Shown here: one piece after another, positions 23,220-25,441 of the stretch
Numbering within the stretch: the first letter of the stretch is position 1
Layout of the letters: the number at the start of each line of letters is the position of its first letter
Assembly: GCA_022868165.1 (NCBI GenBank)
Contig: JALHYA010000018.1
Span: forward strand, 1 to 43,489
Reading direction: 5' to 3'
Length of the DNA stretch: 43,489 nucleotides
DNA from: Patescibacteria group bacterium
GTDB lineage: Bacteria; Patescibacteriota; Microgenomatia; UBA8517
Program-made: the position numbers and the translations under genes
The notes under the pieces: model-generated
The model's database searches: none
The model's input: only the letters and a program-made list of their open reading frames with translations
What the model was told of the DNA's origin: nothing

Positions 23220-24425
23220 ATGAAACGATTTAATTACAAAGCCAGGGACAAAACCGGAACGGTTCTCACGGGGGAAGTCGAGGCGACTTCGCCCGAACAC
23301 GCGTCAAAGCTTCTTCACGCAAAAGGATTAATCGTTATTTCCATCAAGGCAAAAATAGATACCCCGTTGGATTTTATACGCAGGTTTAGGGAAAGAATTA
23401 CTCTCCAGGACGTTGCAACATTTACCCGCCAGCTTTCGACAATGGTCAACGCCGGGCTTCCGATTACCGAGGCGCTTTTGATTTTACGTTCTCAGGCAAA
23501 AGGCCCCATGGAAAAGGTTGCCTCGCAGGTTTTGGCGGATGTTGAAGGAGGAGAATCGCTTTCCACTTCAATTTCCCGCCATCCGAAAGTTTTCTCCCCT
23601 ACCTATATTGCATTGGTGCGTTCGGGAGAGGTCGGAGGAGTGCTGGATGATGTTTTGGCCCGTTTGGCGGACGACTTGGAAAAACAGCAGGAGTTTAGCG
23701 GAAAAGTTAAAGGAGCCTTAATTTATCCGGCAATTGTTATTACGGGAATGCTTGCGGTCGGACTTATTATGATGATTTTTGTTATTCCCCGGCTTACTTC
23801 CCTTTATGGCGAGTTTAACGCCAACCTTCCTCTCCCGACCAAAATTCTTATCGGGATTTCCAACATTCTTCTTCGCTTTTGGCCGATATTCCTTTTATTG
23901 GCCGTCGGCGGATTTTACGCATTCCAGCTATATAGAAAAACTGTTCCCGGCAGACGAAGAACAGATGAACTCATTTTAAAGCTTCCGATTATCGGAGATT
24001 TGCAAAGACAAGTTCTTTTGACGGACATCACAAGGACGCTAAGTCTTATGGTTGGAGCAGGCGTATCTATATTGGATGCCCTAAATATAACAGCGGGAGT
24101 TGTAAACAACGTAGTTCTCTCCGAGGCATTGAAAGATTCGGCAAAGCAGGTTGAAAAGGGTTTCCCTGTCGCCTACTCTTTCGCCAAACACCCCGAAGCT
24201 TTTCCATTTATTTTGTCCCAAATGATTGCGGTAGGAGAAGAAACAGGGAAGATGGAGGATGTTTTAAAGAAAATAAGCCATGTTTTTGAGGTAGAAAGCG
24301 ACCAGAGGGTTAAAACTTTAACGGCAGCAATTGAACCTTTGGTTATGATTCTTCTTGGAGTCGGCGTCGGCTTCCTTGTCATCGCCGTCATCCTCCCCAT
24401 ATACAATTTAACTTCCCAATTCTGA
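23220..24425 (+). CDS. pilC: Type IV pilus inner-membrane platform protein PilC
   Basis: FNYKARDKTGTVLTGEVEA, TRQLSTMVNAGLPITEALLILRSQ, GEETGKMEDVLKKISHVFE. Confidence 0.95.
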   Translation: MKRFNYKARDKTGTVLTGEVEATSPEHASKLLHAKGLIVISIKAKIDTPLDFIRRFRERITLQDVATFTRQLSTMVNAGLPITEALLILRSQAKGPMEKVASQVLADVEGGESLSTSISRHPKVFSPTYIALVRSGEVGGVLDDVLARLADDLEKQQEFSGKVKGALIYPAIVITGMLAVGLIMMIFVIPRLTSLYGEFNANLPLPTKILIGISNILLRFWPIFLLLAVGGFYAFQLYRKTVPGRRRTDELILKLPIIGDLQRQVLLTDITRTLSLMVGAGVSILDALNITAGVVNNVVLSEALKDSAKQVEKGFPVAYSFAKHPEAFPFILSQMIAVGEETGKMEDVLKKISHVFEVESDQRVKTLTAAIEPLVMILLGVGVGFLVIAVILPIYNLTSQF

Positions 24426-24429
24426 TTTT

Positions 24430-24837
24430 CTGTACTCGGCAATAAGGGCGAGCTTTGTCGGAATTCATTTTTGAAAAACTCTCGTCGAGTATTTCAGTTA
24501 CGAAAAAATTTCCCGCTCCTCGCTTGCGTCTCGCCCTACCGCCGTAGTCAGGGTAATTCGTTAACCTTATTAAGGTAGTGCTCGACACATTTTCAAAAAT
24601 GAATTCCTCGCGCTCGCCTAAAAAGATGAGATATTTAGCGCGAGGTATCCTTTTTGAGCAAGCTGTCGGAGCCAGACGCAGAAGAAACAATGTTATAAAA
24701 GGCCATTTGTTGTCTGGCGAGACAGCAGGAGGCGCATGAGAAAAATATTGTTGATGGTAGCGGAGCGAACTACGGTTGAGAAAAAAGCGATACCGACTCA
24801 GCTAAATATCGGTTATGTCTATATTCGTGGGTAGGAC
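24430..24837. ncRNA. Highly structured non-coding region (candidate RNA or MITE-like element)
   Basis: 17-bp perfect IR 24461-24477/24590-24606; 8-bp stem 24607-24614/24637-24644; two-part stem 24662-24677/24712-24726; no credible ORF. Confidence 0.45.
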
Positions 24838-24866
24838 TTGACAAGTACTTTTAAGTTCTTTACATT
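24838..24866 (+). promoter_or_regulatory. Promoter TTGACA-N17-TACATT upstream of first pilin gene
   Basis: -35 24838-24843; -10 24861-24866; enclosed by 9-bp IR TGTCTATAT/ATATAGACA (24816-24824/24869-24877). Confidence 0.6.
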
Positions 24867-24883
24867 AAATATAGACACTTAAA

Positions 24884-25441
24884 ATGCCTGCCAAAATCTA
24901 CAAAGCCTTCACAATGATTGAGCTCCTTATAGTTATCGCAGTTCTTGGTATTTTGGCTGTTGCAGTCCTTTCGGCAATAAACCCGATTGAGCAGATAAAC
25001 AGAAGCCGGGATACCGGAAACAGGAGCGATTCAGAACAGCTTATTTCGGCAATCGACAGGTACTATGCGAATAACGGCTTTTATCCTTGGACAACGGGGG
25101 CAAGCGATACGGCAACCGCTCTGGCCTGGACAAAAGTTAATACAGCCTGGAAGGATAGCGGAGGCTCAACCGGAGTTTTGGGCAAGCTATCCCAATCAGG
25201 AACGGAAGAGCTAAAAGCATCTTTCATCGATAGAATCTCCGGCACAACGTACAACTTCCTTTATGCGCAAAACAATGGTTTGCAGGGAAGCTCAACATAT
25301 GTCTGCTTCCTTCCTAAGTCCGCTTCTTTCAAAACCGATGCCAGTACTCGCTGCGCGGGAACATTACCGACGGATTACCCGCCAACCCCTTGTGCAGGAG
25401 CAGGAGGAACACCGCCGGTCGTCTACACCTGTCTTCCGTAA
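24884..25441 (+). CDS. Type IV pilin (likely major-pilin candidate), A|FTMIELL cleavage motif
   Basis: MPAKIYKAFTMIELLIVIAVLGILAVAVLSAINPIEQ. Confidence 0.88.
   Translation: MPAKIYKAFTMIELLIVIAVLGILAVAVLSAINPIEQINRSRDTGNRSDSEQLISAIDRYYANNGFYPWTTGASDTATALAWTKVNTAWKDSGGSTGVLGKLSQSGTEELKASFIDRISGTTYNFLYAQNNGLQGSSTYVCFLPKSASFKTDASTRCAGTLPTDYPPTPCAGAGGTPPVVYTCLP

Follow-up and report, generated by a model that had tools for sequence, protein, structure and literature searches.

Introduction

ERIC and BOX MITEs are intergenic imperfect palindromes of 100–200 bp found near gene ends, and their copies are near-identical within one or a few genera. The attC site sits just 3′ of its cassette gene, to which the strand that folds is antisense. 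It is an imperfect palindrome used as a folded single strand, its structure kept while its sequence drifts, and extra-helical bases together with an unpaired spacer set its strand polarity (PMC2727003). REPs are located mainly downstream of coding regions, in unidirectional and convergent gaps and often as inverted pairs, and their stems often show GT pairs (PMC3733652). They measure 20–40 bp, carry a GTAG or CGTC tag and often occur in many copies, and in REP/BIME systems the hairpin is recognized as a single strand by an enzyme (RAYT, or TnpA-REP).

Here we describe a previously undescribed family of ~165–180-nt intergenic elements of Patescibacteria, two copies of which lie between a pilC-like and a pilin-like gene. 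Its features suggest a site of recombination or insertion made of folded DNA rather than an RNA that controls the pilus.

Two inverted copies of one element between pilC and the first pilin gene

The window, the whole stretch of 43,489 nucleotides analysed here (contig C14 of the 821-kb genome G000), encodes on its plus strand a pilC-like gene (401 aa, 23220..24425) and a first pilin-like gene (185 aa, FTMIELLIVIAVLGILA, 24884..25441), the upstream and downstream neighbours of the element pair. Its nearest pilC relatives are mostly Woesebacteria/Microgenomates. In nearly all relatives with a clear pilC end, the pilin motif lies 10–142 bp behind the pilC stop, and the gap is ~10–145 bp in most of them and 458 bp in the window; the exceptions are one gap of 344 bp (L049) and two rearranged loci (L045, L053). 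Behind the pilC stop, the relatives usually carry either a TTGACA...TAATACT-like promoter or a short leader bearing a Shine-Dalgarno sequence, and in several TTGACA..TAATACT lies directly behind the stop, the same place as the promoter-like site of the window's first pilin gene (TTGACA-17-TACATT, 24838..24866, plus strand). As this site begins at 24838, the extra ~385–410 bp of the window lie 5′ of the promoter, and the short gap of nearly all relatives gives them the appearance of an insertion.

The 412-nt stretch that fills the gap consists of two diverged, oppositely oriented copies of one ~165–180-nt family, denoted w1 and w2; when w1 is reversed and aligned to w2, the two halves are homologous. 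The original prediction had read the stretch as one nested 410-bp structure. Structured it is, as on either strand none of 100 dinucleotide shuffles folds as well (z = −3.4 for each), but the stems are split between the two inverted copies, which taken singly fold more strongly than the whole (w1, 24445–24620, z = −5.7 and −6.3 on its two strands; w2, 24632–24812, z = −4.1 on the plus strand).

Copy w1 (24445..24620, subfamily A; 163.7, 41 and 83.2 bits with covariance models R1, R2 and R3) has the minus strand, antisense to pilC, as its canonical (folded) strand, with the 3′ end turned towards the stop codon of pilC. Its closing stem P1 corresponds to the perfect 17-bp inverted repeat predicted earlier and recovered by an inverted-repeat search (24461..24477 and 24590..24606), and the predicted partial pairing of the flanks extends it to 25 nt at 88%. 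Outside it, sequence and fold define the outer stem P0, formed by GGCGAGC (24447..24453) and GCTCGCC (24612..24618). Inside it, GCGTC and CTACC (24526..24540) pair with GGTAG and GACAC (24574..24588) as arm P2. In the w1 homologues of the same genome (C13:47065-47243 and C19:34074-34253), the P2 pair CTACC/GGTAG has become ACCAGCC/GGCTGGT and ACCAGTC/GACTGGT, respectively.

Copy w2 (24630..24810, subfamily B) is inverted relative to w1 and folds on the plus strand; it scores 136.3 bits with R2 (E 1.5e-40), a model built partly from w2 itself. Its outer stem is the inverted repeat GATATTTAGC/GCTAAATATC (24630-24639/24801-24810). Fold and alignment place GGTATC-CTTTTT (24644..24655) opposite AAAAAG-(bulged C)-GATACC (24782..24794) in stem P1, with a one-base bulge that is kept across the family. 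The predicted two-part stem GCTGTC-gga-GCCAGAC (24662..24677) with GTCTGGC-ga-GACAGC (24712..24726) is real and corresponds to arm P2, identified by both inverted repeat and alignment. The P3 region (24727..24774) is degenerate here, a GTAG/CTAC hairpin in place of the GGCACYGCC/GGCR-A-GTGCC with bulged A seen in the family. Two further proposed pairings fared less well. The segments CTCGCGCT/AGCGCGAG (24607-24614/24637-24644) are present but form no intramolecular stem of the family, being the shared 5′ motif of w1 and w2 set face to face, and the ATACCGA/TCGGTTAT hairpin lies outside the conserved architecture.

DNA searches support the division into halves. The left half recurs in its own genome (C13:47075-47221, C19:34078-34248), and the right half matches a contig of G015 (C45, 69%, E 4.7e-10) independently of any model. 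The 24461–24606 unit, whose recurrence was proposed as a check, does recur in the same genome, with w2 and the copies on C13 and C19 as full-length members.

A conserved three-way junction with compensatory covariation

One strand of every good copy can adopt a common fold. The outer stem P0 is followed by a purine-rich internal loop (GNGAG/CGA), a P1 of ~12 bp with its one-base bulge, a GA/GA loop and a three-way junction, from which hairpin P2 (with a GCA/GA loop) and hairpin P3 (with a bulged A) emerge, joined by an NGCAG linker; P2 and P3 thus each contain a conserved asymmetric loop or bulge. Distant members (e.g. G130, G165, G184, G148, G364 and G617) keep this architecture with quite different stem sequences. 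The outer ends are inverted, but their sequence varies from copy to copy.

In a structure-free alignment of 10 members, 93% of pair cells are standard, compared with 31–48% when partners are slid by 1–3 columns, and double changes occur in 22 of 37 pairs. With 26 members fitted to R2, double compensatory changes are found in 33 of 36 pairs, and 228 double-change cells are counted versus 61 in shuffles. The secondary structure therefore shows compensatory covariation. Fold energy is strong on both strands, the canonical strand being lower in four of the first five copies, and folding as single-stranded DNA gives z = −4.9 and −3.5. A protein-coding remnant, for which the core is readable as GNLFEEAVAANL, was considered and rejected, as variation falls at first and not third codon positions and length differences between copies are not multiples of three.

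Pairing seems to be conserved at the DNA level

A structured RNA is expected to show an excess of G·U over A·C, and whichever strand is maintained as an RNA fold would be expected to accept G·U. The element shows no such excess. We count 7 G·T versus 11 A·C cells in the 10-member structure-free alignment, and 16 versus 18 among the 814 pair cells of the 26 members (junction pair left out). The tRNAs of the same genomes or loci have G·U in 52 of 540 (Fisher p 4e-10, element versus tRNA), a yardstick for the G·U share alone as ARAGORN gave no A·C in tRNA stems. The missing G·U speaks against RNA, and because G·T is no commoner than A·C on either strand, the pairing seems to be conserved as DNA, a reading that the substitution pattern suggests, short of proof. 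Frequent GT pairing has been taken in the REP literature to favour a role as RNA (PMC3733652), and the element shows the opposite pattern. Running counter to the DNA reading, the internal loops are GA-rich, a trait also of structured RNAs. Covariation this strong without wobble pairs is unusual, and it allows sequence alone to separate a DNA fold from an RNA fold.

Distribution of the family

The R1 covariance model identifies four copies in this genome and further copies in G009, G012, G015 and G031, which belong to the same family. R2 adds G056, from the same order, and further families of the class, and with R3 at least 18 of 374 class genomes are positive; outside the class, R3 matches G484, G559 and G617, and G556 weakly. 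These frequencies are lower bounds, as only a few candidates per genome were scored in the large searches and the MAGs are incomplete; model E-values are rough, and members from which R2 and R3 were built score against those models by construction. Positive genomes have 1–5 copies each.

Searching the whole window and the members against Rfam yields no match inside the element, either at the gathering threshold or weaker, and neither phage and plasmid records nor distant blastn searches contain a match to it. In viral loci, two specific patterns gave no hits and a short pattern gave chance matches only; R3 found nothing in those 80 chance-selected viral loci (673 kb), a useful check of its specificity. 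Weak model matches in G155, G044, G307 and G171 were dropped because the full fold is missing. Two short hairpins (G000:C13:43062-43100 and, in G155, L167:1501-1574) agree with the models in the outer stem alone and are deletion derivatives or chance matches.

Position behind stop codons with fixed polarity

The elements occupy short intergenic gaps, including recA-recX, nrdR-nrdJ, comEA-comEC, dnaK-dnaJ, dnaA-rpmH and pilC-pilin (neighbour gene names were read from translations, not from profile searches). The canonical 3′ end adjoins the stop codon of an antisense gene at 26 sites, versus 2 in the reverse arrangement (distance ≤60 bp, mostly 0–26; two ambiguous convergent cases left out). 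The p of ~3e-6 for this bias is to be read with the sites not being fully independent phylogenetically. About five copies lie between divergent genes and hence have no preceding stop codon.

Comparison between genomes indicates gain or loss. The recA-recX gap measures 1–23 bp in many comparable genomes and 177 bp in G009, where the element fills it; in G015 an element lies directly 5′ of recX, at the contig end. At the tpi–cupredoxin site, G165 has an element (L181:2991-3221), while its congener G130 (L249) has a gene for a ~111–115 aa membrane protein, as does G184 of another genus (L250). No target-site duplication could be defined, the recA-recX relatives being too diverged and G130 and G184 carrying a gene at the site. 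Copies within a genome are only ~50–65% identical, as diverged as copies between genomes, and therefore show no sign of recent transposition. The element is thus patchy, gained or lost, yet without recent burst amplification. Some sites are shared: two genera have a copy at recA-recX and two at GH57-glycosyltransferase, while comEA-comEC is occupied in two families, there in opposite orientation. Sites common to different genera make vertical inheritance of something useful possible, which counts against mobile DNA.

The recA-recX gaps (L201-L230) also attract palindromic inserts of other, unrelated kinds and so form a hot spot, with examples such as AAAGGGTCGGACC..GGTCCGACCCTTT in G039 (L216); AT-rich inserts occur in G031, G018 and G012, and several hundred extra bases in G005, G041, G014 and G008. 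The dnaA-rpmH copy (L106:882-1048, equivalent to G000:C19:34081-34247) is flanked by two DnaA-box-like TTATCAACAATCCGTCAAT sequences and is probably inside the replication origin. Beside it, L110:1757-1861 resembles HgcC of Rfam below the threshold (34.3 bits, E 1.9e-4), which probably reflects composition.

No specific association with the pilin genes

The original prediction favoured a novel structured RNA governing pilin expression, or a MITE inserted in the pilus operon. The first idea finds no support: the element is 5′ of the promoter-like site, its neighbour genes elsewhere are unrelated, and G·U is not in excess. When R3 is run on pilC loci of the Woesebacteria type and of further relatives, the only matches are the window's own w1 and w2. 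A pilin-specific leader RNA or riboswitch would call for a fixed association with pilin and a place inside the pilin transcript, and we find neither. With the element placed 5′ of the promoter-like site and missing from the relatives' pilC–pilin loci, a role in pilin control is unsupported. The element may still influence the 3′ ends of pilC mRNA.

Comparison with known elements and alternative explanations

We consider it about evenly probable that the two inverted copies in the gap, members of a Patescibacterial family, act as folded single-strand DNA sites of the REP/attC kind, by a mechanism that we infer. The element would act as DNA and, when single-stranded, fold into a strand-specific shape to be read by a putative mobilizing or recombining enzyme, HUH- or tyrosine-recombinase-like. 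It would insert into gaps behind stop codons and persist as a low-copy REP/attC-like element; here, two copies would have come to rest in a permissive place, behind the pilC stop and ahead of the pilin promoter, with no pilus-control role needed. A DNA-level fold, conserved asymmetric bulges and fixed polarity are what is expected if extra-helical bases select the strand of a single-strand substrate, as in attC sites or, more simply, in REP hairpins. The resemblance to attC extends to kept structure under drifting sequence, to polarity, the folded strand being antisense after a stop codon at 26 of 28 unambiguous sites, and to the attC apex, which is variable and sometimes branched. In contrast to attC, the three-way junction of the element is conserved in size and loops, its neighbours are housekeeping genes and not cassette arrays, and the R box pair RYYYAAC/GTTRRRY is found at the hairpin base in 0 of 43 members. 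Like REP/BIME, the element is palindromic, intergenic and mainly 3′ of genes; it differs in being ~170 nt long, branched, present in 1–5 copies and free of frequent GT pairs, and the listed element ends share no GTAG or CGTC tag. A Y1/RAYT transposase as the partner enzyme was rejected, as this genome has 0 matches to PF01797. That domain is found in 21 of 50 family genomes, including the four other strong positives, and no model match lies beside a listed Y1 gene. A stronger version, in which these are phylum-wide, structure-read single-stranded DNA sites inserted after stops in one fixed orientation, with three-way junction and strand-defining bulges, forming an independent analogue of attC and integrons in ultra-small bacteria, we put forward tentatively, at somewhat worse than even chances.

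The alternatives account for parts of these data. A transcribed 3′-UTR or intercistronic mRNA fold, the complement of the canonical strand, could set 3′ ends, stability or operon coupling; tight stop-codon adjacency, fixed orientation, strong folding of both strands and the recA-recX, GH57-GT and comEA-comEC sites common to different genera would all suit it. We nevertheless regard it as unlikely, roughly half as probable as the folded-DNA site, given that G·U is as rare as A·C on either strand, the asymmetric GA loops and usually the lower energy belong to the antisense strand, several copies between divergent genes follow no stop codon, the patchy copies are attached to unrelated genes, and the pilin gene has its own promoter-like site 3′ of the element. 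The same rarity of wobble pairs, on the canonical strand (7 versus 11 A·C), makes it very improbable that the copies are antisense sRNA genes, with the canonical strand transcribed against the 3′ end of the upstream gene. This would explain the GA-rich loops, the usually better fold energy and the fixed antisense orientation of that strand, but no promoter-like site is seen on the minus strand in this region of the window and there is no Rfam relative; in fold and covariation the element is comparable to Rfam structured RNAs, differing from them in its lack of an Rfam match and of G·U enrichment. Intermediate between the two RNA readings in probability, and improbable in our view, is an ordinary non-autonomous transposon (a MITE, now degenerate) that belongs to a classical transposase and ends in terminal inverted repeats. 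The MITE of the original prediction does stand as far as behaviour goes: the element is insertion-like and dispersed, has inverted ends and forms a tandem inverted pair in the window. However, the highest within-genome identity is ~66% among aligned copies, far from the near-identity of ERIC and BOX, and the fold is conserved across the phylum by compensatory change, unlike in decaying MITEs. Conservation also covers the whole branched interior and not the ends alone, the outer ends differ between copies, and we saw neither a target duplication nor, in a non-exhaustive search, a parent transposon.

If the folded-strand DNA site is true, this largely uncultured radiation would possess an insertion or recombination system of its own that is based on structure, together with covariance models to find it; if the mRNA 3′ element is true instead, the copies would represent a broad Patescibacterial RNA family absent from Rfam. 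Both outcomes are directly testable.

Genes of the Y1 type (IS200-like or RAYT-like, mostly ~225 aa) number up to 7 per genome (G009, G039, G044 and others). Two loci have genes flanked by same-orientation copies. In G015, two copies on C1 (L136:3808-4417) enclose a small gene of 86 aa that precedes one resembling DNA polymerase IV, and in G184 two genes (pth- and MFS-like) lie between two copies at C4:4868-6912, a cassette-like layout thus seen twice.
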